Source of the DNA: Scilla litardierei
Lineage: Eukaryota; Streptophyta; Magnoliopsida; Asparagales; Asparagaceae
Length of the DNA: 64,000 nucleotides
NCBI GenBank assembly: GCA_030789695.1
Contig: CM061141.1
Location: 279,813,871-279,877,870, forward strand
Direction of reading: 5' to 3'
The notes below the pieces were generated by a model that was not told where the DNA came from, did not search any database, and saw only the letters and a list, made by a program, of their open reading frames with translations. Positions 4,296-63,945 of this stretch are shown here, piece by piece (position 1 is the stretch's first letter; each line of letters begins with the position of its first letter). Made by a program: the position numbers and the translations under genes.

Positions 4296-4523
4296 ACTCT
4301 CGGTTGTGAGAGTTTGTTTGTGATCCCGGGTTGTGGGAGTCACAATTTCATTTGTGTATGATTTGACTTTGTAAAGGTTTTTCACAAGTATTTCATAGTG
4401 CAAATCTTGAGTTAGGATTTCTAACTCAAGTATCCGGAGGGGATCCGGGTGATTGGGACGTAGGATCACCGGGAACAAGTCGGGAAGACTTGGGTGGATC
4501 CGAACCCATTAATATCGTGGGTT
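4296..4523 (+). other. Mini-hairpin array in Sire-A LTR
   Basis: Successive short perfect or near-perfect hairpins: ACTCTC/GAGAGT at 4296-4313 (loop GGTTGT); a similar one near 4320-4343 (loop GGGTTGT); a 10-bp stem CTTGAGTTAG/CTAACTCAAG at 4406-4430; CCGGA/TCCGG near 4435-4449; GGTGAT/ATCACC near 4448-4470; CAAGTC/GACTTG at 4476-4492 (loop GGGAA); AACCCA/TGGGTT at 4503-4523. The stems differ in sequence while some loops repeat. Confidence 0.65.
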
Positions 4524-4680
4524 TGCGATTGTCTTCTTTGTTGTCTAATATTTACATTTCCGCATTTCCGCATTATTGGTAGAGTTTGCAAGATAATTAG
4601 GAATTATCCTCTTAATTATTTTAAAGTACTATTCACCCCCCTCTAGTACTTGTGCAGTATCTTAGCAGGGCATTACAACA

Positions 4681-5787
4681 TCAACTCTTTAGTTATGGAT
4701 GTGATCACCTCATGTGATTACGTTAGGAAATCAAACTCATCTGTGGTTTGGTTCCCTAATGTTTAGGTTCCTCACACATATGCATATTGCATGGGTATTG
4801 TGCTTAAATGTTTATTTTTTTTATCATACCCATTGTTTGTGTGTGTTTCATGATTTTAAAAATGTTTTCAAACTTATTTTTCATGAAAATGGGGACCTTG
4901 GGGAATACATTGTCATGCATGCATTTGTTGATCCATATGTATGACAATGGGGGAGTTATTATATCTAATATGTTTAAAATACTTTAAAACATAGTTTAAC
5001 TCTCATTTTGGGTTTTGATATATATCATTATTTACTATTGGTTTTTATGGTCTTGATCTTAACCCATCGATATTGCCAACATGTTTCATGTTTTATTTTG
5101 TTTGGCAATGTCATTGTGTATCAATGAAGCTTGATTTTTCCATATCTATTGCTTTGATACACTTAGGCCCATGGCTCCAATATATGTATATCAATTAGTA
5201 AAGAGGGTTATTTTCCCAGATTCTTTTTCTATAATTGACAGTTTCATCAATTGTTAGAGATTGTTAATCTCCTTCTTTATAATTGGTGTTAGATCCTAGA
5301 AGTCTAAATTTGACCATTTCTATGATCTAGGGAGAGCATGCGATAGTGATTGATACCCACTAAAATTTTCAATTTGGTATCATACATCTCCTTATATCTT
5401 GCATATTGTCACATCTTGGTTAAGATGACAAAGGGGGATATTTTTGATGTCCACCTTTTTGACGATGTCAAGAGGGAGAGATATATGCATTATGTAAATG
5501 TCTATCTTGTATTTCATACATATGCATATTGGGGAGAGATATCTCTATGGGGAGAGATATATGGGATTTATATAAACCATTCATGTTTGCTTGATATTGT
5601 CTATTGCAATTGGTTTATGTAATCCATGCCTATTATATGTCACCATGATTTCATTTGGTAGAATGAGTATTTACTATTGTGTAGCTCATTGAATAATTGG
5701 TGCATATAAGTCGGGGGAGTTCATTAGCACTGCGCTTTAATTCTTTGTGTTTTACATAATGTGTGCCATCATCAAAAAAGGGGAGAT
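4681..5787 (+). other. 3' internal region of Sire-C with polypurine tracts
   Basis: No coding frame I would accept. Purine tracts of the GGGGGAG type occur at 4946-4955, 5430-5439, 5711-5720 and, against the LTR, 5774-5787. The Sire-A element was inserted into this region. The layout matches 1996-2935 although the sequences are only loosely alike. Confidence 0.6.
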
Positions 5788-6253
5788 TGTTGAGTATTTG
5801 TGTTTCATACCAATCTTATTTTGATGATGATCACAACATTATGTTGTTTCTAAAGACTCTCATGTTTTATTCTCACAGTTTTATTTCAAGAATATCTTTT
5901 TTGGAGACTAATCACTTGGTGCAAGGATGGACATCAAGTGGAGAAAGGCCAAACCTTGGACTCAAGGGGTGCCAAAGCTTGGAGATGATGGAGAGCATCA
6001 AGGCATCAAGATGGAAGAATTAGACTCTAAGAAAAGCAATGTAATCCATGTAATATTTCCTTTATTGCTTTCTCTCTCATTTGAGTCTAGGTTAATGTAA
6101 TGCCTTGATAGATGGTCTACGCATTCATGCATATGCATGTAACCATCTTAGTGAGCCTTAGGATTATCATAGAATCCAACCTAATAGGTTCATCTTGTCC
6201 AAAGACTCATTTGGAGTCTCTGGCTTTCCATCAGTTGCCTGATGAGGGATTCA

Positions 6254-6743
6254 CAGTCGACTGGGTGATTTCCAGTCGCATGTCGATCCTTCTACAGTCG
6301 ACTGATATGCACTGCTCAGTCAACATTTCCATTGAATCTACTTGAGCTTTATGCAACAGTCGACTGCTGCACAGTTTACAGTTGCATGTATGTTTACAGT
6401 CGCCTATAGATTGGTCAACAGTCGTCTGAGTAGCGTAAGTGCAATCTATGCCTCTTTCTGTTTTTCTCCATCTTCTGTAGCAGACGACTGATGAAGGTTT
6501 TATAGTTTACAGTCGACTATATTATTGACATCAGTCGCCCGTATGCTTATCAGGAGAAAGAGTGCAGCTCTCTGTTTTATTCCATCCCCTGCAGCAGTCG
6601 CCTGCTGAAGGTTTTACAGGCGCGTGTCCTGTTTTCAGTCGACTGTATTGTCTTCTTCAGTCAACTGTCCTGGCTCAGATTATAGCCGTTTGATATTTTC
6701 TATTCGTTGATCAGTCGACTATCTTATGATCTTCAGTCGACTG
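6254..6743 (+). repeat. U3 array of CAGTCGACTG palindromes (Sire-C)
   Basis: Perfect 10-bp palindromes CAGTCGACTG at 6254-6263 and 6734-6743, with many degenerate copies between them (CAGTCGCCTG, CAGACGACTG, CAGTCAACTG and similar). They are scattered rather than in strict tandem and end about 90 bp before the TATA box. Confidence 0.8.
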
Positions 6744-6830
6744 TTGCTGTCGTTTTCGCCTTGTTTCTAGCCGTTGCAGCTTTGGGCTGTTGGTTGTTTT
6801 CTTGGGTTTTGAGGGTTGATATAGGGTTCC

Positions 6831-6838
6831 TATATATA
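6831..6838 (+). promoter_or_regulatory. TATA box of Sire-C LTR
   Basis: TATATATA in the stretch after the palindrome array; the corresponding position in solo LTR P has TATATA at 16990-16995 on the opposite strand. Confidence 0.55.
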
Positions 6839-7301
6839 TGGGTGTGCTGATATCTCTAGAACTTCTTGATGCTATTGAAAATCTTTAGAGATTAATTATG
6901 CCACTCTCAATGTCACGCCCCGCTTCCTATTGTACTTGGGAGCGAGGACGCGACGAAGGTCCGCATGTGCTTAAAGCAAGAAGGGTGTACTTTTTTTTTC
7001 TTTTCTTCCCTCCTTGGTTTAAGCACATTACGCGTCTGTGATAACACTTGTAGATTCTTGCATGCGACTCAAACAACACAAATAATTAATTTATTACAAT
7101 CTTAAGTCTCAAACAGGTTTACAACAATGAAAGTAGAAAAAGCGGAAGGAGGGTCTAAGCCCATACAAATATTGAGAAAAGACAACTAATACAAAGATGA
7201 TGTGTAGTCACACTGCTCCTCAGCGAAGGAACTTAGCGGCAAAGCACTCCTGATCAACCTGCTCAGTCTCTAAGCAACTCCTCATCAAATCTGTCTAATA
7301 C

Positions 7302-7339
7302 CTGACGTATATTTCACAAAACAAGGAAATATACGTCAG
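7302..7339 (-). other. 14-bp-stem hairpin in LTR M
   Basis: CTGACGTATATTTC at 7302-7315 pairs perfectly with GAAATATACGTCAG at 7326-7339; the loop is 10 nt. The same stem with a different loop is in LTR E2 (20859-20903). LTR Q (58467-58498) has a version with a change in both arms. Confidence 0.75.
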
Positions 7340-7469
7340 CGAGGGTCGTTCGGCAAGATTTTAAAAGATAAAAAGAAACTTGACCCTCGGCAAGGTTTTC
7401 AAAAACGTTTACATAACAATATGAGTGACAAAACAAAAGTCACATTAGTTAAAGCATGGCAGCATAAGA

Positions 7470-7835
7470 AACATATGAGCACTGGCAAGTGTAGTGTGCA
7501 AAGCAGTGAGCAGGCGAGGTGTAGTGCACAAAGTAACGAACATGACAAGGTGTAATGTGCACAGCAATAAGCATGGCAAGTGTTTTGTGTACAGCAATAA
7601 GCATGGTAGGTGTGTGTACAACAATAACATGGCAAGCGTGGTGTGTACAGCAGTAAACATGGCAAGTGTGGTGTGTATAGCAGTGAACATGGCAAGTGTG
7701 GTGGGTACAGCAGTGAACATGGCAAGTGTGGTGTGTATAGCAGTGAACATGGCAAGTGTGGTGGGTACAGCAGTGAACATGGCAAGTGTGGTGTGTATAG
7801 CAATAAGCGTAGTGTGTACAGCAATAGGCATGATA
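7470..7835. repeat. 30-bp tandem repeat in LTR M
   Basis: Units of exactly 30 bp around the core AACATGGCAAGTGTGGTG are most regular at 7650-7810, with decayed units on both sides. Open frames crossing it on both strands are by-products of a repeat length divisible by three and are not genes. Confidence 0.85.
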
Positions 7836-8984
7836 TTAGTACACAAACAAGACAAGAGTAACCAACAGAGTACGCAAACCTCAATAGTAACAATATGATT
7901 AAAAGAACATGACAATCAGTCAAGTGTGCCTAGTGAAAAGACCAATGTCTGAGGGGGAAAAGTGACCAGCATTACACCCAAGCCAACGGGAGCTACCCGT
8001 GGCTCTCTACTCACCGACCCGGCCAGGTGTCGGTCAAGTTCACCACGAGAGTGCAATCCAGCATTCCAGCCTCTACTACATTGAACTACCCCACCCAAGT
8101 GTTCTGCTGGACACGAGCCATCCTAATCGATCACACGAGTTCACAAATGCTAAACCGTCATATACTGGAACACGAGCCTGACTAGTCATCATGTGACCCT
8201 ACTGGAACACGAGCCAGACTAGTCACATATGACCGACGGGAGTAGCCAATCAATAAGCACGATTTCACAATTTTCAAGGTATTCCGTTCTGTCAATATGT
8301 TCCATTAATACATGTTCCATCAATAACCTTTCAATCAAGAGTGAACGAGCATGATATGCAACATGATATAAAGCAAACCAGCAATTCTTGATTTAGCAGT
8401 TGAATGTAACGGTATTTAAAAGTTGTAAAAATGCACACTTGCCTGATTTGTCGATTTAGGTGACCAGGCGATCCAATGAGTGGTGTCTATCTGCGAGGTT
8501 GAATTCGCGTTATAAGCTAATCGTTCCCGGCCAATTAAAATATTCATTAAATCGAACACATTACATACTCGATTCCCTATTAAATATTTAAACAGATTCC
8601 AAACTAACTTACTAACTAGATAACTTACTCTGATAACATCTTACTACTAATTAATACATACTGGTTTAATACGAAAAGTAATATATCAATTAAAACTTAT
8701 TCACAGACATGCCAGCATGATTTTAATGAGTCAGCTTACTGATTTATGCCATTAACTGATTACACATTACAATAAGAACTAATTAAAAGGTATAATAGTA
8801 CTAACATCTATCAGGCTGTGAAGTACTGCTACATACATAGATCTTACTTTCATCTTATATATTAATAAACTAACCCTAACATAACATTAACATTGCCATC
8901 ATGTACAGCTAATGGATATATGTATGTGAACCTACTATAATAACTTAATGAAACTCACCTACTCCCCCCTTCTTCTTAACTCTC

Positions 8985-10260
8985 CGTCTATCTTCCCTTT
9001 TCTCTTTTCCTTGCAGAAGAGATCGAGGCAGCAAAGCGAGCTTGGTTCGGCGGTTGGAAAGAGGCAGTCGGCGCGGCAATCGGTGGTTCTGCAGGGCAAG
9101 GGGTAGCCTCGGGGATCAAGCGGTCGGTCGAAGGAGGCATGGATGGTGATCTGAGGCGGCGGGGGATCTTCGGGCGAATTCGACGGCGTGGGCAACGAGA
9201 GGGGGAGGACGACACGGTCTCGGGGCTGATCGGATGGGGGCGGTGGCGAGAGCGTAGGCCGGAGGAGAGGTCGGAAGTGAAGGAAGTCGGCGGCGGTGGG
9301 GTCCGCTGGTCAGAGCGGGGTCGATGGGAGCCCTCTGTTCGAAACAGAGGATGTGGATTCGAACAGGGGAGCGGGACGGGGTCTTGGTTCGGGTCACGAT
9401 GGAAGGAGGGTGAGGCGCGACGGGGTGACGCCGGAGATCTGGGAGGATGGTGGCTTGCGAGGTGGCCGGTGGGTTTAGAGAAGGACAGGGGGAAGGCAGG
9501 GCTCTGCGGGGCGGAGCATGACCCTAGGCGAGGATGCAGGCGGAGAAACAAAGGGGAGGTGGCTACAGCGAGTTTGCCAGAGCGTTGGACGGGCAGGAGA
9601 TGGGCGATGAAGTCTGCGAGGATGCCGACGGCGGAGGGCGGCACTCCAGGCGGAAGTGGGTTCGTTGAGGTGGAAGGGAAGTCCGCCGGAGGAGGGATGG
9701 CGGCGATTGGAAGTGAGCGGTCGGGGTTCGGCAAGGAGGCGGGAGGAGTCGGAACTGGCCTAGATTTGAAGCAGGGGAGGAGAATGGGTTTGCTGCCGGT
9801 GTGGGTTTGGGTTCGTGGTGGACTCGCCGGTATGCTCGAAGGGCGGAGAGGGGCTTGGCTGGTCGAACAGAGGGAACGGCAAGGCGCTGTGCGGGATGGA
9901 GAATGGCGGAGGCATCTGGGCGTCTGGTTACGGGGGTCCTAGGCTGGGAAGAGCGAGGCATCGAGAGTTGTCACCGGAGTGGGCACTGCGGGGAGGGACA
10001 GGGCTCGCCGGGACTCGGAGAAGTCGGAGGCACGTGTGGCGGTGGAGTAAGGAGGGGGGGTCTGTGGGGTTGGTTGGACGGCGGGGTCTTGATCCGAGGA
10101 AGGGGACATGGGTGAAGCGCCATCGGAGGGTGACTGGAGAGTAGTCGCTGCTGACGATGTTGATGTGAGGAGTTGGGAATGTTGCGAAAATGGAGGGAAG
10201 ATCGTTGCATATGGGTTTGTTTCTGCTTGAGCCTTTGGGTGGAAGAGCTACCAAAGTTTT
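8985..10260 (-). other. GC-rich segment of LTR M
   Basis: A 1.3-kb GC-rich, CpG-rich block in otherwise AT-rich DNA. It corresponds in place to 59690-60420 in LTR Q, where it follows the TATA box on the minus strand. Open frames up to 248-267 codons on both strands reflect composition; their products are Arg/Pro/Gly-rich and unlike each other. I read it as a long GC-rich transcript leader of the LTR. Confidence 0.5.
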
Positions 10261-11308
10261 AAAGAGGAAATGAGAGAGTAAGAGGAGAGGACGTGGATAG
10301 TTGGTTTGCTAAATAATAGGAGAGATGGAGTTAGCGGGTGTACGTGGGAGAGACGTGGGGTTGATCACGTGGGGATGCGAGGGTCATGGGGAAGATTGTT
10401 GGGACGTGGGATCAAATCGTTACGTGCGTGCGTGTGTAAAGCTGGGTGCGGCCATGTGTAGGTTTGGGTTCGGCCTCGGGTTCATAAGATAGAGCTAGAT
10501 ATATTAGGAAATGATTCGTATTAATAGAATTGATTATTCTTTATTAGAGAAATTGATTTAAAGAATGTTTGAAATATGAATATTAATATGGAGAGATTAA
10601 TGGATTTAGACAGATTAGGAAGGCTTAGAAAATTAAAAGATTTGCTTTTAAATATTATTCATTAGGGAATTAATAGTTAGATCAATTTGGAAGGGTTGAA
10701 ATGTACTAATAATTAGGGAATTAAAGCTAAGTAATTTTGGAATTTTGGAAACATACTATTAATTAGGGATTTAAGAGAAAGGGAAGAAAAAGAAGGTTTT
10801 TTTGAAATTTAAAAAGGATCTGTTTAAAACCTGCTTGATTTGATACGATTTGATCATGGGAAAATTAAAACTAACGTAATTTTGGAAAGTGGAATAATAC
10901 ATATTAATTGGGAGAAAGTAAAGGGGTTTAATTATAGAGTACCACTAAATTAGCTATAGACTTTATTAGAATTAAAATAGAAAGTTTTCAAAAGAATTTG
11001 AATTCATTTTTAAACATTTGAATTTTGGACACTTTTGAGTTTTGAAAACTTAAACCATTAATAATAAATTTAAATAAGCTAGCCTAATGCAAGTGTACTA
11101 ATGAGACAAACACATCAAGGGTAATAAATGAAATTAAGGGTTGGGTATGATTGGTCTAGTTTATAAAAGATTTGATTTGGGTATTGATTTAGTGAAGATT
11201 CTATTAGTATGAGAGATATGATTTGGGTGATCCGTTAACTAAGATATGACAATTTATTCGGTTAGAATATCTGATATATCTATATTACATTTGATAGAGT
11301 TTTTTGAA
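10261..11308 (-). other. AT-rich U3 side of LTR M, no gene
   Basis: AT-rich, with repeated TTAATTAGGGA-like phrases. It should correspond to the U3 of the minus-strand LTR. No coding frame and no palindrome array of the kind found in the other LTRs. Confidence 0.4.
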
Positions 11309-12228
11309 TCCTAGGGCTGACTAGGACAAGCTGACTAGGACAAAGGGGTTGATAAAAAAGGGTCAGGATTAAATCTTGGGAAAATAGACGGTTTAGATGG
11401 AGATTTGAGATAGTTTTGTTTGATTAGTGGGTCCCACTTCTTTCTTTGGGAGATCAATGGACTTTTGCGTGGGATTTGAGATGGGATAGGCTTTTCACGT
11501 GAGATGCTAGCTGTATAGCAACAGCCTGTTTTTTGGGATAGCAAAAGGCTTTTTTGGAAAGATCAACCGGCATTTAGCTTCCCAAGAATTGGTTTACAGA
11601 GTTGGGAAGCTCAAATTTCTCTACGTTATCAATTGTTCGCAGTGTTTTTCTCTTTGCGCCAGGCATCAAAATCCCTAGCATGTTCACGGTTTTCTTGATG
11701 GGGGTTCTTCTCAATTTTTCGTTTTCTAGACAGTATGTATTGCCTTCAGGAGCCTTGGTTCGGTCCCTAGCATGATTTTTTGACCGCTTTTTTGATTTTT
11801 TTTGGGCCTTGATTTCTTTAGTTTTTTTGTTTAAGCCTTGGATTTTTTGCACGGTTCACAGTGTTTTTTGCAAGATTTTTTGTTTGTTTAAGCCTTGCAA
11901 GAGACGACCTCACGCCTAATTGACCTCTTTTGTTTTCGTTTTGTTTAAACCAAAAGCACAGATCCGAAGGTTTATTTGAAGGTCTTGGCCTCGCCTCGCC
12001 TCGCTTCTGATGAGCCCAGCAGCACATATCCGAAGATCTTGGCCTATGGGAGCGTGGTTTATTTGAAGGGGGGAAAGGCGAGTAGATCCGAAGATCTTGG
12101 TACAATCTCTTAATTTTTTTGATAAAAATCTCATTTTTGATAAAAATCCCATTTCTTCTTCTTCTTCTTCCTCTAGATACAAGGCCAGCTTTTTTGTTTA
12201 TTTTTCGTGGGTTACGGCTGAATGACAT

Positions 12229-12393
12229 TCAGTGATTGTTTATTTTGTTGGTGGCGCTCATGGCCTGGAGCCAGACGATGGCCTGGATTTCGTGGGTGAC
12301 AGCTGAGTAGGCCGGGAAGTCGGTGTTGGTGGCGCTCATGGCCTGGAGCCAGACGATGGCCACCAGTGATATCCATGGGAACAGCTGAGACAT
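12229..12393 (-). pseudogene. Captured NFD4/nodulin-like transporter exon fragment, partly duplicated
   Basis: A 54-codon minus-strand frame opens MSQLFPWISLVAIVWLQAMS and continues ATNTDFPAYS, which I recognise as the first transmembrane helix region of plant NUCLEAR FUSION DEFECTIVE 4-like (nodulin-like, MFS-type) proteins. The part coding IVWLQAMSATN occurs twice (12247-12279 and 12325-12357), so the fragment was duplicated after capture. It ends at TGA. It is far too short to function and is typical of gene pieces carried by Helitrons. Confidence 0.65.
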
Positions 12394-12399
12394 GTTGTT

Positions 12400-13930: not shown

Positions 13931-13934
13931 GAAG

Positions 13935-14290
13935 GCTCCCGCACAATTTTTATACGCTAATTTGTTGTTCCACGTCGAAGGCGCCTACGCTGAATTTGTT
14001 GTTTCGCACCGAAGATGCACGCCGAATTTGTTGTTCCACGCCTAAGGCGCACGCGCTGAATTTGTTGTTCTATGCCGAAGTTATTGTTTCGCATCGAAGT
14101 TGTTCCGCGCCGAAGGTACCCGCTAAAATTTTTTACGCTAATTTGTTGTTTCGCACCGAATCTGTTGTTCTACGCCGAATTTGTTGTTCCACGCCGAAAG
14201 GGCCCGTGTCGAATTTGTTGTTTCGTGTCGAAGGAGCCAGTGCCGCTAAATATTTTTACGTTAATTTGTTGTTTCGTGCAATTTTGGTTG
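13935..14290. repeat. Degenerate repeats in the Helitron 3' part
   Basis: Irregular units of about 30-45 bp around GAATTTGTTGTTCCACGCCGAAG. Frames across it yield repeated Cys/Phe-rich peptides and are not taken as genes. Confidence 0.6.
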
Positions 14291-14343
14291 TGGAAATAAT
14301 TTTTTGGGGAACAAAGACTTTGCGGGGAAAAATCTTAAATGAA

Positions 14344-14371
14344 CCGTGCCCACGGGCACGGGTTATGACTA

Positions 14372-14465: not shown

Positions 14466-14469
<4 letters not shown>

Positions 14470-14768: not shown

Positions 14769-15435
14769 CTCAAACTCTATCATTTCCCTCTTAGAGCATA
14801 TTATCTCCTTCATGCATTGAAGTCAAGCTCAAAGGAAATCATCCAAGTGCATTTCTAGCAAATCTCATTACTTGGAGATCCTCTTCCATGCCTTGCATTC
14901 ATTTATGAGTAAGTTCATCTCAAGGCATAGGTAAGAGTATTTGTTTTACTTTGTTATTTTATTGTAACCCTAGCTTTCTGTGTGAGAGCTAGTTACTCTC
15001 TGTGTGAGAGTATAACCTTCTGTGTGAGGGTTGGTTGAGTCTCTCTGTGTGAGAGCTTAAGTCTTTCTGTGTGAAAGCAAGGATTTCTCTGTGTGAGAAT
15101 CCTAAATCCTCTGAGTGAGGTCTCTTTGTGTGAGAGTGAGGATATCTCTGTGTGAGAATCCAAATCATCTGTGTGAGGTATCTCTGTGTGAGATTGTATT
15201 CACTTTTCTGTGTGAGAATTATAGTGGATATTAGTGTGGCTGGACGTACCCAAGTTTGGGAAACCAGAGTAATTCTTGTGTTTGCGTTTGGATTGATTGT
15301 GTTGATTAATTCCTCTTACACTTATTATTCTGCATTTGCAAGTTTAATTTTAATTGCACAATTTATTGCCATTAATCTACTCACCCCCCCTGTAGATTGT
15401 TTGTTGTTAGTATTGCAAGGTAGACGGTCCTTACA
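14769..15435 (+). repeat. LTR of Sire-C, second part
   Basis: Resumes the Sire-C LTR after solo LTR M and ends ACGGTCCTTACA at 15435. With 5788-6910 the LTR is about 1.8 kb. It holds the clearest mini-hairpin array in the window. The bases that follow, aagag, are the expected TSD of Sire-C; the partner is outside the window. Confidence 0.8.
14971..15217 (+). other. Mini-hairpin array with TGTGT loops (Sire-C LTR)
   Basis: About twelve units, each a short stem around a TGTGT loop. Examples: TAGCTTTC/GAGAGCTA (14971-14991, one G.T pair), TACTCTC/GAGAGTA (14994-15012), AACCTTC/GAGGGTT (15014-15032, one G.T), CTTTC/GAAAG (15063-15077), GGATTTCTC/GAGAATCC (15081-15102, one bulge). The loop stays fixed while the outer stem bases change on both sides. 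Confidence 0.8.
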
Positions 15436-16096: not shown

Positions 16097-16374
16097 ATGA
16101 CATCAAGATAGGGAGTTGAGCTCACGACTTAAAACGAGCGCTTCTTGGGAGGCAACTGTAAGGGACCCTGTGGGGCTACACATACACTAGAGGGGGGTGA
16201 ATAGTGTAATAGCAAGCAAAGTGCCTAATTAAAAGTTACTAAAATTAAAGCACAATAAGCAGCGGAAATTAAACAGAGTGCACAACAACACAATCACAAA
16301 CACAAGGATATTACCCTGGTTCCCCAAAACTTGGGTACATCCAGCCACACCAATATTCACTATAATCCCACAAA

Positions 16375-16615
16375 GAGAAGTGAATACAAATCCCACAAAG
16401 GGATTCGCTCCCACAAAGAGAGAGACCTCACCAAAAGGATTTTGCCCCACACAAGGACCCAACCAACCCTACACAAGGGTCAAACTCCCACCTAGAGAAT
16501 TACTAACTCCCACTCAGAGAATTAGGGTTAGCCCTACACTAGGACACTAAACTCCACAAAGAGAGTTACTTCCACAAAGAGAGTATCCTAATCCCACAAA
16601 GAGAAATAGGGTTTC
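16375..16615 (-). other. Mini-hairpin array in solo LTR P
   Basis: Counterpart of 14971-15217, read on the minus strand with TTTGT or TGTGT loops. Clear stems on the plus strand: AATCCC/GGGATT at 16389-16405 (loop ACAAA), ACCCT/AGGGT at 16466-16480 (loop ACACA), AACTC/GAGTT near 16552-16569. Several further units are imperfect. Confidence 0.7.
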
Positions 16616-17082: not shown

Positions 17083-17710
17083 CAGTCGACTGATGATCAT
17101 AAGGCAGTCGACTGATCAACGGCTAGAAAATATCCCAACGGCTATATTCTGAGCCAGGACAATCGACTGTAGAAGACTACACAGGCGAGTGAAAAGCAGA
17201 CAGTCGACTGTATATCCTTCATCAGGTGACTGCAGCAGGGATGGACAAGAAACAGAGAGCTGCACTCTTTCTCTAGATAAGCATACATGCGACTGATGTC
17301 AATAATACAGTCGACTGTCTTATAGTCAGGCGACTGTAATACCTTCATCACTCGACTGCTGTATAAGATGGAGAAAAGACAGAGAGAGATGCATATTTCG
17401 CACTTACGCCTTTCAGACGACTGATGGCCATTTCACAGGCGACTGTAAAAACAGCAACAGTCGACTGTCTTGCAAATTGGGAAAAAGCCCAGAAAATGCA
17501 AGAAGCGCACATGCGACTGTCGACCAATTCACAGGCGACTGTAAGAGTACATGCGACGGTAAATTGAACATCAGTCGACTGATGCGAAAAGCTCAAGATG
17601 AGTCAATAGAAAATTTGACTTGATCAGTGCATTACAGTTGACTGTAGAAGGCTCGACAGGCGACTGGAAATCACCCAGTCGACTGTTAATCCTTAAGCAG
17701 GCGATTGCAG
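17083..17710 (-). repeat. U3 array of CAGTCGACTG palindromes (LTR P)
   Basis: Perfect CAGTCGACTG at 17083-17092 and 17676-17685, with many perfect and degenerate copies between. It lies on the U3 side of TATATA (16990-16995) in minus orientation. Confidence 0.8.
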
Positions 17711-19541: not shown

Positions 19542-19616
19542 AAAGTGGTAGAGACCCCACAAAAAGCTGAAAATATGGGCACTTAGGCCCACCAAGTAGT
19601 CCGGCCACGACGCCCT

Positions 19617-19974
19617 ACTCGGTCGAGTAGCGGCGTCGCTCGGTCGAGCTGATATGCGGCTTCCGCTTTGCTGCTGCTTTGGCACTAGGCTGATGCAGGC
19701 TACTCGATCGAGTAGCCCCTCCACTCGGTTGAGCTACAGTAGGCTGAAATTCTCCTCAGAACACTGTTCTATTTTTAATTGTGCTCGGTCGAGTAGAAGC
19801 TCTGCTCGGTCGATTCGCCATGCTTACGCGGTCGAGCTACAGTACTGGGAGTGTGACTTGAAATAGTCGCTCTGTTTGGAGTCAGCTCGATCGAGTAGAA
19901 GGTCTGCTTGGTCAAGTGCTGCATATCAGTTCTGAGAGTATCAGCTTGGTCGAGTGCTGAGCAGCTCGATCGAG
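19617..19974 (-). repeat. U3 array of ACTCGGTCGAGT palindromes (D1)
   Basis: Copies of GCTCGGTCGAGT and ACTCGGTCGAGT from 19617-19628 to the perfect palindrome GCTCGATCGAGC at 19963-19974, about ten in all, irregularly spaced. Confidence 0.75.
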
Positions 19975-20274
19975 CAGACAAGCTCCAAGTGCCCCTAGAG
20001 CTCTCAACTCTCGTTCTCTTCTCCTCTACTCCTCCAATCTTCTTCATCACCTTGCAGAACACCTGTTGGACCTTGCCAATGATGCTCTCGACGTCTCGGA
20101 TGTGTCCATGCCCTCTAAATGCTCCAATTCGCTCCAAAGTTCCTGAAAATCCACATTTCTATACGAAACTCAAATATAACATTAGAAGCGTGATAATATA
20201 TATAAATATGAACTTTGGATGGCGAATATGATATGAAATGATGCAGTAAATACATGAAAAATATGGGTACATCA

Positions 20275-29143: not shown

Positions 29144-29513
29144 TAGTCGACTAGGTAAAAGTGTTAGTCGACTAATAATGTTGTCAGACTAGAAAATGAC
29201 TGATGAAATGTCCTTTGATAGGAGATAGTTAATAAAAGGCTAGAAACTATCATAAACAGCTAGAAACTGTCCAAATCTATCCGTTGATAGGTAGTTATAA
29301 TTTCCATTAATTTATTAAAAATTAATTAATAGAAATCAGTTAAAATAACTGCTGATATAACTATTTGAAAAACTGTCTCGTAGACCAGGAAAACCTATTA
29401 GTCGACTAAGAACAAAAATTTGAGAAATTTTCAAAATCTGATCCTTATGATTGGAAAATATAAAATAATTTTATTTTTCTTAATAAAATAAGAAAAATTG
29501 TATTAGTCGACTA
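29144..29513 (-). repeat. U3 palindromes TAGTCGACTA (Sire-F)
   Basis: Four perfect 10-bp palindromes TAGTCGACTA at 29144-29153, 29165-29174, 29399-29408 and 29504-29513, all on the U3 side of the TATA box. Confidence 0.8.
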
Positions 29514-31228: not shown

Positions 31229-31518
31229 GTAACGACTGGTTTCCTTGTATCTGGATTTATTATATTATAATATATGTTTTGGTGGATTTTCTCCTCATGT
31301 GTGGTTTTCGTCTCCGTAGCATTCATTTTCGATCGTTTCGTCATGTTTTCTCGTTTCTTCCTTAGGATCGTCGATTTCGAAGTATGTCATTCGTGATGGA
31401 CTTCATAACGGTCGTATCTTACTACTAGATCAAGCCTAGGAGTCTTAGGAATCGATCCCGGAGCTCCGCGCTCCGTATCGGAACTTTTGGTGCACGTTAG
31501 CCGGTGTAAGAAGGGGCA

Positions 31519-31913
31519 CCGACCGACTAGATGACGATCCAGTCGGTCGGCAATGCTTCTTGGACCGACTAGTTGGCTTTCTAAATTATTCAAGAGTTAC
31601 TGTTTATCGTTAGTCGGTCTAAGAACGTTGGTTGACCGACTAGGTTGCAAACTAGTCGGTCGGCAATGCTTCTTTAACCGACTAACTCATCAACTATTTT
31701 TGACACTAGTTACTGTTCACTCTTAGTCGGTCTAAGAACGTTCACCGACCGACTAGATGTCAAACTAGTCGGTCTGTAGTTGTTCTTTGACCGACTAACT
31801 CTTAGTTCAGGTTTTTGACTGGAGTTACTGTTTACACTTAGTCGGTCTGCGTTGGTCCACCGACCGACTAGTTCTCAAACTAGTCGGTCAACAGTTGTTC
31901 CTTGACCGACTAA
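31519..31913 (+). repeat. U3 array of ACCGACTAG / CTAGTCGGTC palindromes (B, 5' LTR)
   Basis: Same unit as in Sire-A (3362-3868), including shared phrases such as CAATGCTTCTTGGACCGACT. At 31862-31889 a perfect 12-bp stem GACCGACTAGTT/AACTAGTCGGTC has a 4-nt loop. The copy in the 3' LTR is at about 45768-46163. Confidence 0.85.
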
Positions 31914-43426: not shown

Positions 43427-45430
43427 CCCTATTCTTGTTGTGCCTGATCGTAGCGGTGGATTCGAGATCTTTTGTGATGCTTCTGGCAAGGGTCTCGATT
43501 GTGTGTTGCATCAGCACGGGCATGTTGTGGCTTATGTGTCTCGTCAGCTTAAGGTTCATGAGAAGAATTACCCGACGCATGATTTGGAGTTGGCTGCCGT
43601 TGTGTTTGCTCTTAAGATTTGGAGGCACTTCCTGCTGAGTGAGAAAGTGAAGATTTTCACCGATCACAAAAGTTTGAAGTATATTTTTACTCAGAAGGAG
43701 CTCAACATGCGACAGCGTCGATGGTTGGAGCTTATGGCGGATTATGATATTGATTTGCAGTTTCACCCTGGCAAGGTGAATGTGGTCCCTGACGCGCTGA
43801 GTAGGCTTCCAGCGGTGATGATTTTGACCTCGCAGTGGAGATTGCAGCAGGATTTTTGCGAGTCTGGCGTGGAGATTGTTCTTCCTGGGGAGGATTCATC
43901 GTTGATGTACATGCAGGTACAGTCGACGATCGTGGATCGGATTAAGGCTGGCCAGGCTGAGGATCCGAAGCAGGTAAAGATTCGGGAGCAGGTGGGAGAC
44001 GGTCTGCGGACTGACTTTTTGATTCATGAGGATGGCTCGCTGAGGTTTGGAGCCAGGCTGTGTGTGCCAGCTGGGGATATCAGAGAGGAGTTGATGGTGG
44101 AGGCACACAGTTCGCCGTATTTTATGCATCCTGGTGGCACCAAGATGTACCAGGATCTTCGTCTGAATTATTGGTGGCATGGTATGAAGAGGAGTGTGGC
44201 TCGGAGTGTAGCCAAGTGCTTGGTTTGCCAGCAAGTGAAGGCGGAGCATCAGCGTACGGCCGGGTTGCTACAACCGCTTCCAATTCCGGAGTGGAAATGG
44301 CAACACATCACTATGGATTTCGTGACTGGACTACCTCGGAGTCCGAAGCAGAATGACGCGATTTGGGTGATCGTAGATCGATTGACCAAATCCGCGCACT
44401 TTATTCCGTTCCGAGTGGGACAGTCCACTGAGGCGCTAGCGAGGAGATATATGGAGGTAAAATTCTTTTACCCTCCGTTTTTATTTCCTTTTCCTAGTTT
44501 GGATAGTGATGTAACGTGAATCGTGCAGGAGGTCATGCGAATTCATGGAGTCCCCGTGAGTATCGTGTCGGACAGAGACACGAGGTTCACATCTCAGTTC
44601 TGGCAGAGTTTGCAGAAGAGTTTGGGTACGCGTCTGAGTTTCAGCATGGCGTACCATCCGCAGACGGATGGCCAGTCCGAGAGGACGATTCAGATTTTGG
44701 AAGACATGCTGAGGGCGTGCATGTTGGATTTCAAGGGTTCGTGGGAGGACCATCTGCATTTGGTGGAGTTTTCTTACAACAACAGCTTCCAGGCGAGTAT
44801 TGGCATGGCGCCTTTCGCCGCTCTTTATGGGAGGAAATGTCGATCGCCATTGAGTTGGGATGACGTCGGTGATCGGGAGTTGTTGGGACCTGAGATGATC
44901 GTGGAGGCCGTGGATATCGTCAGGAATATTCGGGAGAGGTTGAGAATTGCTCAGGACCGTTTTAAGCATTGGGCAGATGCTAAACGTCGTCCTTTGGAAT
45001 TTCAGCCGGGCGATCATGTGTTCTTGAAGATTTCCCCGAATCGGGGTGTGATCCATTTCGGGAAGCGAGGGAAGTTGAGCCCGTGATACATTGGACCGTT
45101 TGACATTTTGGAGAGGGTTGGCGAGGTAGCTTATCGCTTGGCCTTGCCGCCATCTTTCGAAGGAGTTCACAATGTTTTCCATGTATCGCAGCTTCGTCGA
45201 TACATTAGCGATCCATCTCATGCTGTGGATTTTTCGGAGATTACCGTTCGCCCCGATATGACGTATGACCAGCATCCAGTGCAGATTCTGGACAGGCGTC
45301 AGAAATCGCTTCAGAACAAGATTGTCAATCTTGTGAGGGTGATGTGGCGACACGGCTCACCTGGAGAGTCTACTTGGGAGAATGAGGATGAGATGCGAGA
45401 GCGTTTCCCACTTTTGTTTCCGGACACGTG
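43427..45430 (+). pseudogene. pol: Chromovirus B RNase H, integrase and chromodomain
   Basis: Continues pol after element E (TSD actgc at 43422-43426). RNase [48 protein letters not shown]. Integrase: zinc finger [10 protein letters not shown] and [40 protein letters not shown]. Near the C-terminus FHVSQLRRYI, then a chromodomain-like end (QILDRRQKSLQNKIVNLVRV, ESTWENEDEMRERFP) as in Tekay/Del chromoviruses. In-frame TGA at 45084 (Arg codon expected) and a probable 72-nt intron at 44457-44528. Confidence 0.9.
44457..44528 (+). other. Probable phase-0 intron in chromovirus B integrase
   Basis: 72 nt, GTAAAATTC...CGTGCAG, pyrimidine-rich, with an in-frame TGA at 44517. Integrase homology is unbroken if it is removed: ARRYME is followed by EVMRIHGVPVSIVSDRD, the usual spacing. 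The length is a multiple of three, so the frame is the same on both sides. Confidence 0.7.
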
Positions 45431-45477
45431 AGTGTTTGGAAATTCTGAGGACGGAATTTTTCTTAAGTTGGGGAGGA
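45431..45477 (+). other. Polypurine tract of chromovirus B
   Basis: TTAAGTTGGGGAGGA directly before the 3' LTR, as usual for chromoviruses. Confidence 0.85.
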
Positions 45478-47952
45478 TGTAACGACTGGTTTCCTTGTAT
45501 CTGGATTTATTATATTATAATATATGTTTTGGTGGATTTTCTCGTCATGTGTGGTTTTCGTCTCCGTAGCTTTCATTTTCGATCGTTTCGTCGTGTTTTC
45601 TCGTTTCTTCCTTAGGATCGTCGATTTCGAAGTATGTCATTCGTGACGGACTTCATAACGGTCGTATCTTACTACTAGATCAAGCCTAGGAGTCTTAGGA
45701 ATCGAGCCCGGAGCTCCGCGCTCCGTATCGGAACTTTTGGTGCACGTTAGCCGGTGTAAGAAGGGGCACCGACCGACTAGATGACGATCCAGTCGGTCGG
45801 CAATGCTTCTTGGACCGACTAGTTGGCTTTCTAAATTATTCAAGAGTTACTGTTTATCGTTAGTCGGTCTAAGAACGTTGGTTGACCGACTAGGTTGCAA
45901 ACTAGTCGGTCGGCAATGCTTCTTTAACCGACTAACTCATCAACTATTTTTGACACTAGTTACTGTTCACTCTTAGTCGGTCTAAGAACGTTCACCGACC
46001 GACTAGATGTCAAACTAGTCGGTCTGTAGTTGTTCTTTAACCGACTAACTCTTAGTTCAGGTTTTCGACTGGAGTTACTGTTTACACTTAGTCGGTTTGT
46101 GTTGGTCCACCGACCGACTAGTTCTCAAACTAGTCGGTCAACAGTTGTTCCTTGACCGACTAAGCAGTGCAGGAAACCCTAGTTTTGCCCTAGCCGCCAC
46201 CAAACTCTATAAATACCCCTCCAAACGTTTTCTTCTCCTCCCTCACGACCTAAAACCCTAATTTCTCCCACATTGAGCCCCCATCTCCCTCAAACCATTA
46301 ATCCTTCATCCCAAGCTCATCCTCCATCATCCAAACCCTCCCTCAACTCATTCCACCTCTCATCTTCCCCAAATCTCCATCAAATCCCCAAAATCCCCCA
46401 AAACCCTATTTCTCCAAACTTCTCCAATCATTTCCAGATCTAAACCCTAGGTTCCCCGGAGCGTTTCTTCCGTCGACGTGGTTGCTCGGCGTTATTCTCC
46501 CGTTCCTTACGCGGTAATACTCGATTCCTTTAGTTTTAGCATAACCCACATTGACATTTGTGAAACCCTAATAAAATGGATTATTAGATGATTAGGGTTC
46601 TAATAAGAAACCTATTTAGAATCATTTCGCTAATGATTGTTTTGCCATAACAGTGATCCATTCCGTAGTTAGCTTGTGTGACGATCTTCATTGCTCGTCA
46701 ATCCCGGTATCAGGCAAGTGAAACTTGCATCTCTTGAATTGGGCCATGTCTTAGGCCATTTACCTTGCTTTAGCGTAAAAGAGACTAGACGGTGAAAGTA
46801 TAGCCGTTTAGACGCCATTGACCTAGCTTGACAACGAAGCTTGGTCCGTCACCTTCATCATGCTTGTATGTCACGTTTACTTTCCCTTAACGGTACGCGA
46901 ATTAACTGTTCATGTCATCCATGCATCCTTAACTGTTATTGCATTTTGCATGTCACGTTTAAATACAATTAACGGTACGCGAATATGTTCATGTCATTGC
47001 ATTTTGCCTGTCACGTTTAAATACAATTAACGGTACGCGAATATCTGCTCATGTCATTGCATGCTCGAACACTCATCGTGATTGCGTGGTTTCGCTACAA
47101 ACTTGTACTATTGGTCCCGGCTAGGCACCCACCTTGCGTGGGCACAATCCTATGCCAACTTCACTTTCTGGCTCGTGTTCCAGAAGACGAGCTCAACACA
47201 GCCTGCGGGCAATAGGGCACTCGTTGAGTGATCCCTTGTACTTGATACTAGAACACAGCCTGCGGGCAATAGGGCACTCGTTGAGTGATCCCTTGTACTT
47301 GTACTTGTTACTTGACATTACATGTCACAACAACCACTTGCCACTTGTACTCTCATTTACTTTACTTGTTACCACCTTACTTTACTTGCCATGCACCATA
47401 CTTTAACTGCTAGGTTGTTAGTCTACCTTTCTTTCTGTTTCCTTGCACAAGTCTGCCGACTTGCTGACATTTGCCCCTTTTCTCTTTTGGGTGACACATG
47501 TTAGAGCCCGAGCCCGAGTTACTTGCTGAGGACGTGGTGTTCGCTGACCCTGAGTCAGGACCCGCGTTGATCGAGGACTACGTCGACACTGGGGATCAGT
47601 CTTAGTGTCTTTGTTTAGCTACTTTTGTTAGACTGCTTAGTTGTCGGTGCGTGGCACCTAGTTGATACTCTGTTATGTTTGTGTTGCTTTTGTTTGGCCT
47701 TGTTCTGGGCCTTAGACTCTTTCATGTTAGCCTGGTGGCTTTTCTGTGATGTTGAATATTTTGTGGACAAACTTTGGGATTGGTTATTTCCTGTCCATCT
47801 CTTGTTATTCTTATTATTCTTGTTGTTCCTTTTGCGTTTATAGGGACCTGCTTATACTAAATTGACGCTTATCAGGCGTGTAGCTTCACAGCTCCACGTT
47901 TGAGCGGACCTTCTCACGTCTCGCCTCCATTTCAGGGAAGCGGGGCGTGACA
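45478..47952 (+). repeat. 3' LTR of chromovirus B
   Basis: 2475 bp, nearly identical to the 5' LTR, with the same array, TATA (46208), hairpins and tandem repeats. Followed by the TSD catat. Confidence 0.95.
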
Positions 47953-49431: not shown

Positions 49432-49516
49432 CTAACTAAAAAAATCTAGAAAAAAGATGACCAAAATACCCTTAACCTGAAGCAAACCCTAATTCTCAAA
49501 TCTAGGCAGGCAACAC

Positions 49517-49845
49517 ACTCGGCCGAGTGAAACTGTCACTCGGTCGAGTGGCATTTTTTGCAGAAAATCTTCAAAAATCAGCACTTTGTCTTCTATTGCC
49601 ACTCGGTCGGGTAGATTTATCACTCGGTTGAGTGAGATCTCCAGCAGACTTCTCCAAAAACAGTATCTGCCTCCAACTTTTCTTCTCTCCACTCGGTCGA
49701 GTTGGCTTCTCACTCGGTCGAGTGAAAGTTTCACTCGGTCGAGTGAAAGTTTCACTCGGTCGAGTGAATTTGACATTCTTCTTTGGTTGGGGCTGGGACG
49801 TATCTGCTTCACTCGGTCGAGTGGGCTGCATCACTCGGCCGAATA
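49517..49845 (-). repeat. U3 array of CACTCGGTCGAGTG palindromes (element G)
   Basis: About ten copies of ACTCGGTCGAGT or close variants; the most regular part (49720-49770) has three units of about 22 bp with AAAGTTT between. Frames across it give a repeated TRPSE peptide and are not genes. Confidence 0.85.
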
Positions 49846-50147
49846 GGCTGAGTTTTCATCTTTTTCTTCTTCTTCTCACTTCCTTCCTTCTTCTATTCTC
49901 CTCCTTTCACTTCTTGACTTCAAGCACTGTGAGTTCCTCGATATCGTCGCCAATGATGCTCCGGCACACGTATATATGCTCCTAGCTCCAAATTGATCCC
50001 GATTGCTCCATATTTCCTGAAAATCCAATGAAACATAGAAATAGTGAAATTCGTCGTGAAATCGTCGTTTAAGCTTTAAATTTTCGATATGAGCAATCAA
50101 TATGGCATGGAAATATGCAAAAATAAAGTGTAAAATATGAGCAATCA

Positions 50148-54829: not shown

Positions 54830-55527
54830 ATCATGATCCGGTCTAGCGCTTTTTGACTAGTGTTGTGGATCACCCTAGCTGGACTGGGGATAGTGATCCT
54901 GGCCTAGTAAATCCCTGGCCGTGTTCTGCTGAACTAAAGATGTGAATTGTTATTATGTGAAACCATTGATTACACCTAGTCTAATACGTTTAAAATATTC
55001 TTCAAGATTAATCGTAGCCCTCCGTATTTTTGAATTAGGGGACTAAAAGACGCATGTCATGGTTGTTGAGTCTCCTCAAGCTATGACATGATCTCTTTAG
55101 AAACCGACTCCATCATATATATGATGTAGTCTGGTCTTAACATAAACCGCCGCATCGGGTCTCCTCGAGAGTCGATGTAAGTTAAGTTTAGACATGAAAA
55201 TAAGGGTTCAACTAAACTAGTCATTATGGTTTGTTGAGTCTTCTCAAGATCATAAGTGAATATGGGCAAAAACCAATAAGGAGTCACATGTGATGCGATT
55301 GATGAAGAGTTCATCTACCAATTACAGAGACGATTAATTTGTTGAGTCTCCTTAAGGTTGTGAAGCTCAGGGTGGTTGGATCCCTCTCCCACAAATTTTA
55401 AATAAAATAAATTGTTCATTATTATGGCTTAAACTGTTCATTAAAATAGTGGGAGAATATAGTTTAATAAAAACCTTTTAAACTATAAAAGAATATATGC
55501 TAATTCAAAATTCAATTAAAATGCAGT
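54830..55527 (+). other. Leader of Copia element K with repeated hairpin motif
   Basis: Noncoding stretch ahead of the K gag. The phrase TTGTTGAGTCTCCTCAAG occurs three times with small changes (55062, 55233, 55339); each can fold as TTGAG/CTCAA with a 4-nt loop. No clear LTR end or PBS was found. Confidence 0.5.
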
Positions 55528-56190
55528 ATGGAGTCAAGACTTAAGTTTATCATCGAAAAGAATGTGCTGAATGGAACAAATTATAAGGACTGGTTGAGGA
55601 ACATCAAGCTAGTTCTCTCATTAGCTGAAATCGGTTATATACTGACAGAAACTGCTCCTGAGAAACCCGACGACGAAGCCACTAACGAACAAAAGGAGTC
55701 CTACAAGCTATGGCAATGGGATGCAGAGAAGGCCAGGTGCCTTACTTTGGCCTCAATGAACAATGATTTGTAGATAAAGCTTAAACATATGGATGTTCAA
55801 AGCATGCTCTTAAATGCGGAGGAATTGTATGGTTAGCGTTCTAGGGCTGCTAGATTTGAGACCACATGTAACCTTTGGGAAACGAAGATGACGACAGGCC
55901 CCGTCCAAGATCATGTGATCGAGATGATCGGGTACATTGAGGATGCCACCAAGCTAGGATTTGTCCTTGATCATGAGATGAGCACTGACATAGTCCTAAA
56001 GTCTTTAACTCCTACTTTTAACCTGTTCATTACAAGCTTTAGAATGAACAACACTGAGGTGGAACTTCCAAGCCTCCTGAACATGCTCCGGCAGTTTGAG
56101 GAGAGAATCGAGAAGGACCCACCAATGTTGGTTGTTGGCTCTGCTTATTCTCACCGGCCCAAGAGCAACGATAAGCCAGATTGTAAATAA
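55528..56190 (+). pseudogene. gag: Copia gag fragment (element K)
   Basis: Starts MESRLKFIIEKNVLNGTNYK, typical for the N-terminus of non-Sirevirus Copia gag, followed by EKARCLTLASMNNDL and, after TAG codons at 55771 and 55849, a UBN2-like part (KMTTGPVQDHVIEMIGYIED, LPSLLNMLRQFEERI). One frame throughout. It ends at TAA (56188) before any zinc knuckle; nothing of pol follows. Confidence 0.8.
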
Positions 56191-60178: not shown

Positions 60179-60220
<42 letters not shown>

Positions 60221-62765: not shown

Positions 62766-63299
62766 TGTCACGCCCCGCTTCCCAAAAACATGGAGGCGAA
62801 GCGTGAGAAGGTCCGCACGGACTTGAAGCTGCAAAGCTGCAAGTCCGATAAGCGTCAATAAAACGAAGTAGCAGGTCCCTGTAATGTGACTCAGAACAAC
62901 AATAACAATAATAGGAAAAAGAGGGAGACAATAATATAACATTAGTCCAGCTCATAGTCCAACAAAAATCCACAACCAGAAATGCCACCAGGCAACAAAA
63001 GAGTCAAAAGTACAAGGCCCAGCATGGCCAAAAGAAACTAACAAAACGGTGCTACTCACCGACAACCACAGCTAACAAAGAAAAGTACGGAAGATCTCTA
63101 AGATTGATCACCGGTATCTTCGTACTCCACGTCACCAACAGGTTCGGGCACAAACTCCACGAACTCGTCACACTCCGCAACTGTCTCTGGCTCAGCAACT
63201 AACATGCGTCACCCAAAGAGAAGGGGCACATGTCAGCAAGTCTAAAAAAAAGACTTGTGCAAGGAAACTATAAAAGTAAAGCAACCTAGCAGTTCTAAA

Positions 63300-63385
63300 G
63301 TAAGGTATGACATGGTATAGCATGGCAAATAACATGGCATGGCAAGTAACATGGCATGGCAAGTAACATGGCATGGCAAGTAAAC
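63300..63385. repeat. 17-bp tandem repeat in LTR R
   Basis: Units of AACATGGCATGGCAAGT, four to five copies; same relative place as the arrays in the related LTRs but another unit. Confidence 0.85.
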
Positions 63386-63799
63386 AAATAAAAAAAAGGA
63401 CAAGTACTGGAATTGTAATCACGTCGTGCACAGAGATTCCGCCCTTTGGCTAGAGTGGCTGTACGGGCCAACTCTTACGCTCAAGTGATCGTTTATCCCT
63501 ACCCCTCCACGTGTGTCGAGCCAGGGCATTACCCCCGAACACGGAATGCTCGCTTCTGGATCACGAGCCAGGAAGTGTTATTAACACGGATGGCGTAGGG
63601 TTATGCCCGCATAACGGGTGCCTAGCCGGTAACACGGAAACATGGATTTTGTACATGTAGTGTAGCGTGTGCTACGATGCAAGTTTAACTAGGATGACAT
63701 GTAAGATGCAATGCATGGCAGTTAACAATTCAAGTGCGTACAGTTAAAGGAATTTAAACATGGCAATTATCAATGCATGAATGATATGTCAAGGTGTCG

Positions 63800-63945
63800 G
63801 ATCTAGCTTCGTTGTCAAGCTAGATCTCAAAGTTGCGCCTAGATCGCTATCATTTCGCGATCTAGTCTCTTTCACGCTAGTACAAAGAATTGGCCTAAAA
63901 CATGGCCCTAAGAAGTGTTGGCAAGTTTCACTTGCCTGATACCGG
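63800..63945 (-). other. Mini-hairpin series in LTR R
   Basis: GATCTAGCTT/AAGCTAGATC at 63800-63826 (10-bp perfect stem, loop CGTTGTC), CTAGATCGC/GCGATCTAG at 63839-63865 (9-bp perfect stem), then TCTTT/AAAGA, GGCC/GGCC and GCAAGT/ACTTGC (with TTC) toward 63937. Order and loops match chromovirus B (32464-32594) read in reverse, the stems do not. Confidence 0.8.

Follow-up and report, generated by a model that had tools for sequence, protein, structure and literature searches.

The palindrome arrays reported here have their closest described counterparts in the repeated motifs (RM) of Bousios 2010 (PMC2829016). Those motifs are palindromes of the upper half of the long terminal repeat (LTR) that precede the TATA box; further copies stand ahead of the envelope (ENV) gene, and the motifs are reported as Sirevirus-specific. 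For maize, the accessible part of a survey describes a peak of structure in Copia LTRs and none obvious in Ty3 (PMC10760457). Our subject is a 64-kb stretch of Scilla litardierei (contig CM061141.1; hereafter the window), plant DNA full of nested LTR retrotransposons, in which Copia and Gypsy LTRs carry two distinct classes of structure: arrays of palindromes in U3, upstream of the TATA box (class I), and rows of hairpins downstream of it (class II).

A sequence-only reading of this DNA had claimed rows of mini-hairpins downstream of the TATA box, in R/U5, in at least six Copia and Gypsy elements, as a feature for which it knew no name. The strongest structures are instead the U3 arrays, which lie elsewhere than those rows and for which a name exists: they fit the RM as the accessible text of PMC2829016 defines them. 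Elements are designated here by letter (Table 1): Copia A, C (with its part P), C', D, F50 and Q, chromovirus-type O1, R1 and R4, and Athila-like E1 and E2. Only A and C/P follow the sequence-only reading, whose letters are not all tied to coordinates; the others were assigned in this analysis. The copies compared are those inside the window, with borders and motifs chosen after inspection.

Palindrome arrays upstream of the TATA box

Perfect hairpins (stem at least 6, loop 3-8, simple-repeat arms excluded) number 179 in the window, against 85-116 across 10 dinucleotide shuffles in 500-base blocks, and 67 of 1,275 overlapping 250-bp intervals hold at least three of them, against a shuffled mean of 8.3. 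The excess over chance is real. Local folding in 200-nt intervals with a span of at most 40 gave z-scores (z) below -3 in 53 of 639 intervals and below -4 in 28; a few of the low-z intervals are TA repeats (~14201-14600 and 23101-23400). When LTRs were folded by segment, with 100 shuffles each, the part between distal U3 and the TATA box gave the values listed for the arrays in Table 1, that of E2 being equally low in 2 of 100 shuffles. Distal U3 parts ranged from -2.0 to +2.0, and the whole U3 of F50 gave +0.8. The R/U5 segments gave -4.2 for A, -4.6 for C, -2.6 for C', -1.6 for D, -2.7 for O1, -3.4 for R4 (partial), -1.1 for E1 and -1.7 for E2; the two Athila-like values, as low in 15 and 3 of 100 shuffles respectively, are not clearly above chance.

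The arrays end 45-90 bp before the TATA box in seven of the nine elements with a readable one (A, C, C', D, O1, E1 and E2). Together the seven hold 48 dyads, but D contributes nine of which five are AT-rich and do not resemble the motif. The dyads read CAGTC-GACTG in C and C', TAGTC-GACTA in D, CTCGA-TCGAG in E2, CACTCG-ac-CGAGTG and CACTCGG-CCGAGTG in E1, and GACCGACTAG..CTAGTCGGTC in A and O1. The arms are 0-2 nt apart in 30 of the 48 dyads overall and in 28 of the 39 belonging to C, C', D, E1 and E2, a spacing with no room for a conserved loop; for A and O1 the gap is 0-2 nt in only two of nine dyads and 4-8 nt in seven. Of 173 YASTCG half-sites in the window, 125 fall inside eight arrays (4,217 bp, the two LTRs of O1 counted separately), a density of 29.6 per kb against 0.80 elsewhere. 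All 28 occurrences of the closed dyad ASTCG-(0-2)-CGAST fall inside arrays, none of them those of A and O1.

Two further features of these arrays were recorded. RCCGAC, which we take to be the core of the drought/cold element, has 18 copies in A (3341-3931), 20 in O1 (31491-31957) and none in the arrays of C, C', D, E1 and E2; being dense in A and O1 only, it was rejected as a common factor of all arrays. The C and C' LTRs (5788-6829, 14774-15430 and 16175-18282) are strongly CpG-depleted, with observed/expected ratios of 0.07-0.19, and their U3 arrays stand at 0.74 and 0.79; the arrays retain CpG in old copies.

Compared with the RM as given in the accessible part of PMC2829016, the arrays are alike in being palindromic, present in many copies and placed in the upper LTR half shortly upstream of the TATA box, and copies of the A motif at 23-153 precede a frame in ENV position (931-1995; its Pfam match is PF20167, a putative plant transposon protein, not an envelope family). 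Where RM start 200-400 bp into the LTR and run for 300-500 bp upstream of the TATA box, ours start at about 270-470 bp, with A and C slightly past 400 bp and C' further in by its approximate LTR start. The CGG-CCG core of RM, to which the source paper itself has one exception, Tnd-1, appears as CCG..CGG in A and O1, as CGGCCG in E1 and as CGACCG in E1 and E2; C, C' and D have GTCGAC only. RM number at least eight per element, against 4-9 dyads or 8-25 half-sites per array here. The host range differs: RM are given as a Sirevirus feature, whereas we also find arrays in the chromovirus O1 and the Athila-like E1 and E2, and, unlike RM, O1 has a homologous module in common with a Copia LTR (PMC2829016). 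The maize survey likewise has local structure in Copia LTRs, with a palindromic cis-region; arrays here extend to three Gypsy-type LTRs, and rows downstream of the TATA box are not described in its accessible part (PMC10760457).

The sequence-only reading had placed the palindromes of the Athila-like elements in R/U5. On the elements' own minus strand the array comes first, upstream of the TATA box.

A U3 module in common between Copia A and chromovirus O1

The arrays of A and O1 are both built of units of 113-115 bp and align one unit out of register, with 77% agreement across 405 nt aligned without gaps and a score that none of 300 shuffles reached. The non-repetitive part before the array also matches, with a Smith-Waterman score of 54 over 163 aligned nt against a maximum of 34 in 1,000 shuffles. 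The TATA region and R/U5 give no clear match (score 28, reached in 12 of 200 shuffles). As controls, the pre-array part of A was compared with other LTRs, and the scores were reached in 11 (C), 34 (D), 188 (E1) and 139 (E2) of 300 shuffles; C' gave 33 against a shuffle maximum of 28 in 300, a weak unexplained match far below that of O1.

These alignments show a U3 block of ~590-710 bp, ending just before the promoter, to be homologous between the Copia and the chromovirus LTR as judged from their sequences. Because the homology includes the non-repetitive flank, we infer that a U3 module was exchanged between superfamilies. Copia to chromovirus is the likelier direction, since the same motif also occurs upstream in the internal part of A, as in known Sireviruses. 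The module may have moved by template switching or recombination; template switching that fused two parent elements is described for Triticeae in the accessible part of PMC1950507. The exchange proposed in the sequence-only reading is thus borne out between superfamilies for a U3 palindrome array, and not for an RNA module downstream of the TATA box.

Hairpin rows downstream of the TATA box

Of five Copia elements folded downstream of the TATA box, four carry a row (A, C, C' and Q), none of 300 shuffles per row folding as low. Loops differ between A, C/C' and Q. GGTTGT is common to two of the nine A helices; in Q, TTGAGTCTYCTYAA occurs in three of four hand-chosen stretches, and two of these fold alike in the inner stem and loop region. 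The C' row begins ~385 nt after the TATA box. If R is about 10 bp long, as estimated for Sire LTRs in the accessible part of PMC3601003, the rows would belong to U5, which places them in the leader at the 5' end of the genomic RNA.

Outside Copia the case is different. The O1 row is no stabler than shuffles (z -0.5, 85 of 300 as low). In R4 the stretch 63690-63960 gave z -2.8 (3 of 300), and in two adjacent hairpins compared between O1 and R4 pairing is retained at 16 of 17 and 17 of 17 positions, three double changes being read there by eye and two of these also found automatically; the evidence for a chromovirus row is weak. Set against the sequence-only claim, then, the rows of Copia A, C, C' and Q (z -3.6 to -7.2) exceed dinucleotide shuffles, while those of the Athila-like elements, O1 and D do not.

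No Rfam family matched at gathering thresholds across the 64 kb, and two protein-based scans for relatives in viral contigs found none, one pattern being unmatched and the single matching stretch of the other encoding no relative. Kissing loops in the C rows were considered and set aside, TGTGT and TTTGT not being self-complementary. Retroviral packaging signals comprise several stem-loops before or around the primer-binding site, with loop-specific Gag contact; several hairpins in the 5' leader would be common to both systems, but the retroviral ones are not tandem copies of one hairpin. The genomic RNA of Ty1, also of Copia type, similarly has hairpins in its 5' domain, but there a pseudoknot encloses two of them, their loops complementary to each other, and mutations have been used to test them (PMC5454406); here a tandem row is predicted whose loops are not self-complementary. 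We found no description of hairpin rows downstream of the TATA box in Sire-type LTRs, nor of RM-type arrays in chromovirus or Athila LTRs, in the accessible parts of PMC2829016, PMC10760457, PMC3601003, PMC6911290, PMC5311732, PMC11656987, PMC12016029, PMC8794818, PMC1950507 and PMC5454406; Bousios 2016 may hold more.

Stem covariation in the C/C' family

The units of C and C' have mostly 5-nt loops and arms that change. The C units are all 12 TG[TA]GTGA sites of R/U5 (a looser word gives 14, two of which were omitted); the 12 C' units were hand-picked from 49 candidate words after the folds were seen, and the test was repeated with units chosen by rule. Watson-Crick pairs were counted, and the 3' arms were dealt anew 20,000 times. 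C has 61 of 84 such pairs against a permuted mean of ~49, a count reached in 0-1 of 20,000 permutations in two runs, and the hand-picked C' units have 51 of 84 against 39.2, reached in 6. By rule, the C' count was reached 27 times with 11 units, 122 times with 14 and never with all 25 candidate words; with G-U also counted as paired, C' gave 23. When the 3' arm is slid by 1-3 positions, paired cells fall from 66 and 68 to 27-48. The tests show that the arms of the C/C' units covary, by way of either RNA selection or inverted-repeat repair. The claim of a conserved loop on a stem changing in both arms therefore holds for C and C', one family, and not elsewhere; two of the nine A helices and two Q helices share loops.

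Refolded homologous pairs gave small numbers of double changes in shared pairs: two for O1/R4 at 32440-32720 and three near the LTR end, two each for C/C' in R/U5 and in U3, one for A/O1 in U3, and none between the 5' and 3' LTRs of O1.

Interpretation and alternative explanations

Our preferred reading, which we hold with about as much confidence as doubt, is that these LTRs contain two systems, enhancer-type arrays in U3 and RNA-hairpin rows downstream of the TATA box; positions, enrichment, covariation and the A/O1 homology are the parts directly shown. The clustered palindromes would be transcription-factor sites that act before the TATA box as enhancers of the element promoter, and, as the homology shows, a whole U3 module passed at least once between elements of the Copia and chromovirus types. 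For the C/C' family, tandem multiplication would have brought a single hairpin to 12 units, with the loop kept and the paired stems changing. Twelve repeats of a conserved loop, each on a stem that pairs but varies freely in sequence, would suit a multivalent docking site, and the row, if transcribed and folded, may serve as one in the 5' leader. Its partner might be the element's own Gag, in packaging, a first guess that is rather unlikely to hold. That the Copia U5/leader tandem hairpin array is a multivalent docking element, of which we found no description, and that Copia and Gypsy elements exchange the U3 module as a portable part of the promoter, is a tentative proposal that we would sooner doubt than rely on. 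Several observations weigh against these readings. Arrays are absent from F50 and Q despite their TATA boxes, with no YASTCG half-site between 50147 and 55528; the array borders were set with the sequence in view; YASTCG was broadened until it took in all seven arrays, so that its sharing by Copia, chromovirus and Athila-like elements is a lead only; and the 4-8 nt gap in A and O1 means that geometry does not exclude hairpins there. Among the rows, D is without one (z -1.3, 31 of 300 shuffles as low), and the C and Q rows are about as stable when folded on the reverse strand (z -6.3 and -4.0). The C/C' units form a single family related by duplication, and permutations overstate their independence; the narrowest C' rule, six exact TTTGTG units, fails (1,215 of 20,000); with G-U counted as paired the C result weakens to 369-402 of 20,000, and to 2,611 with all 13 exact TGTGT; and pairing survives in only 12 of 30 and 16 of 27 of the pairs that differ on both arms between the two copies. 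The stems hold 18 G-U against 2 A-C, but among 5,000 permutations of the arms 4,429 for C and 3,717 for C' give a difference as large, and an earlier count had no G-U bias (one G-T and one A-C in all R/U5 segments, two and six in the U3 arrays). An excess of G-U over A-C as a sign of RNA-level pairing was dropped for failing this permutation control, and the G-U count shows no RNA-level selection.

The rule-based C' repeats and the failed G-U control led us to weight the preferred reading down and a mutational one up, in which both kinds of palindrome would be made and repaired by tandem duplication together with template switches that correct imperfect inverted repeats while the element is reverse-transcribed or replicated. 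According to PMC8794818, hairpins can arise and persist through template switching, with compensatory changes of several bases, and the stems here favour Watson-Crick pairs, with G-U below permuted arms (4 vs 8.9 and 14 vs 17.5), as repair would give, and without a G-U signature. Against this stand loops that stay alike while stems change and U3 arrays at a fixed place relative to the TATA box in three lineages, and we consider the mutational account unlikely, if well worth keeping in view. The structures could also be mainly host-side, as templates from which small RNAs silencing the element are made, tolerated because transcription depends on the sites; at 15-40 nt a single hairpin is short as a small-RNA substrate, and such an account would describe a consequence only, leaving the TATA-proximal placement and the kept loops unexplained. 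We regard it as improbable even though maize Sirevirus palindromes are reported as small-RNA hotspots, a result of Bousios 2016 related in PMC10760457 and PMC5311732. Similarly improbable is a role of the rows in translation or 3' end formation, with GU-rich loops as downstream polyadenylation elements or hairpins hindering scanning: C/C' loops such as TGTGT and TTTGT would suit it, but those of A and Q are not GU-repeats, and with an R of the ~10 bp given in the accessible part of PMC3601003 the C' row lies far past it. For the A and O1 arrays, resemblance merely by accumulation of the same binding site is very improbable; other LTRs do share the short half-site without long homology, and the pre-array part of A exceeds all 300 shuffles against C' too, but the similar unit length, the 77% agreement and the clear match of the non-repetitive flank speak for descent from one module. 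We give hardly any credence to one structured RNA module that all families would carry in R/U5, through convergence or exchange, as the sequence-only reading envisaged. It would account for the four Copia rows and the doubly changed chromovirus hairpins, but R/U5 of the Athila-like elements does not rise clearly above chance, nor do the rows of O1 and D, the module that was exchanged lies upstream of the TATA box, and the loops differ among A, C/C' and Q.

Element map of the window

The map in Table 1 is based on self-comparison, Pfam scans of stop-free frames, a tandem-repeat search and sequence reading, with unsupported ends read by eye; those of A, C', E1, E2 and Q are approximate. We call A and C Sirevirus-like from their clusters of polypurine-tract (PPT) words and their C-rich end signals, features given in the accessible part of PMC2829016. 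The word GGGGGAG occurs four times in the 1,038 bp before the A LTR (2642, 2725, 2855 and 2927), a multiple PPT; before the C LTR it occurs only twice in 1,132 bp, yet seven looser A2+G4+A words are present. The whole plus strand has 9 and 21 of the two words. The C-rich integrase signal near the LTR end is CTATTCACCCCCC in A and C', CTACTCACCCCCCC in C and CTATTCACCCACCC in D. No pol of A, C or C' was recognised among the scanned frames. A U5 stretch with a TTGTGTTTGCGTTTGG-like end is alike near the LTR end in C (15235-15300), C' (16280-16335), A (4450-4530) and D (28580-28650).

O1 has Pfam matches to Gag, RVT_1, RNase H, H2C2 integrase, SH3_Tf2-1 and Chromo, the last at E 3.7e-5 and 24.0 bits, slightly below the curated cut-off of 25.1; judged by its integrase tail and chromodomain, O1 is a chromovirus. 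Behind its 5' LTR (33703-33820) a primer site of TGGTATCAGAGC type is absent at up to two mismatches. O1 apparently inserted into the gag of E1, whose primer-binding site we take to be of tRNA-Asp type and whose lineage we presume to be Athila-like. Nested in O1 is an element N (36475-42431) with 840-bp repeats (97%) and a Gypsy pol frame of 1,091 aa. A LINE-type fragment (RVT_1, zf-RVT) lies at 23257-25945 inside the internal region of Copia D, and 30-bp tandem repeats are common to the chromovirus-type LTRs R1 (7475-7834) and R2 (21049-21269).

Table 1. Retrotransposons, palindrome arrays and hairpin rows of the window, by element; array z is from segment folding and row z from row folding
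Feature	Position	Strand	Basis or detail	z
Copia A, LTR (Sirevirus-like)	2936..4655 (right end approximate)	+	begins TGTTGAG after PPT cluster; C-rich end signal CACCCCCC ~4636	
A, RM-like palindromes upstream of frame 931-1995	23..153	+	motif as in A array; 1-74 vs 3794-3867 76%	
A array	3359..3868	+	~113-bp tandem units, GACCGACTAG..CTAGTCGGTC; TATA TATAAATA 3934-3941 (read)	-9.7
A row	4296..4534	+	nine predicted helices	-5.3
Copia C	LTR start 5788, resumes after R1 to ~15430	+	read; right-hand part is P ('C with P' of the sequence-only reading)	
C array	6254..6745	+	CAGTCGACTG; TATA TATATATAT 6831-6839 (read)	-3.1
C/P row	14970..15231	+	12 abutting hairpins; loop TGTGT in 11/12, TGAGT in one	-7.2
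R1, chromovirus-type insertion splitting C LTR	6911-14768		target duplication CTCAA	
Copia C'	LTR ~18282 to 16175	-	read; same family as C	
C' array	17083..17690	-	CAGTCGACTG; TATA TATATATT ~16995-16988 (read)	-4.8
C' row	16354..16610	-	12 abutting hairpins; loop TTTGT in 6/12, remainder relatives	-3.6
E2, Athila-like	~20272 to 18430	-	located by likeness to E1	
E2 array	19615..19985	-	CTACTCGACCGAGTAG; TATA TATATAAG 19541-19534 (read)	-2.2
Copia D	LTR 29842 to 28458	-	perfect primer-binding site 28455-28444	
D array	29144..29513	-	four TAGTCGACTA dyads; TATA TATAAATA 29068-29061 (read)	-5.6
O1, chromovirus	LTRs 31228-33702 and 45478-47952	+	LTRs 98.7% identical; target duplication CATAT	
O1, U3 module homologous to Copia A 3154-3864	31327..31913	+	alignment	
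O1 array, 5' LTR	31497..31913	+	~113-bp units; TATA TATAAATA at 31958	-6.2
O1 array, 3' LTR	45747..46163	+	copy of 5' one; self-comparison and tandem-repeat search	
O1, integrase C-terminus	45087..45431	+	SH3_Tf2-1 (2.3e-18) and Chromo domain; adjoins 3' LTR	
E1, Athila-like	LTR ~50147 to 48382	-	TGGCGCCGTTGCTGGGGA at 48375; Gypsy gag 30746-31264	
E1 array	49516..49850	-	CACTCGACCGAGTG; TATA TATAAATA 49431-49424 (read)	-5.5
Copia F50	LTR start 50636, TATA ~50275	-	interrupted by E1	
Copia Q	gag from ~55528	+	TATA TATAAATA ~54805; Retrotran_gag_2 5.3e-7 over 55837-56190; possibly F of the sequence-only reading	
Q row	55053..55378	+	eight predicted helices; LTR borders not determined	-3.7
R4, chromovirus-type LTR	3' end 62766	-	runs off window end	
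R4 hairpins	63797..63936	-	two with compensatory changes vs O1 32535-32595	

Implications

If palindrome arrays are a general promoter architecture of plant LTRs and modules cross between superfamilies, LTR regulation would evolve by exchange and could not be read from pol phylogeny. The selection of plant Copia RNAs for packaging is, to our knowledge, poorly understood, and the hairpin rows, if they are docking sites, would offer a visible handle on it.

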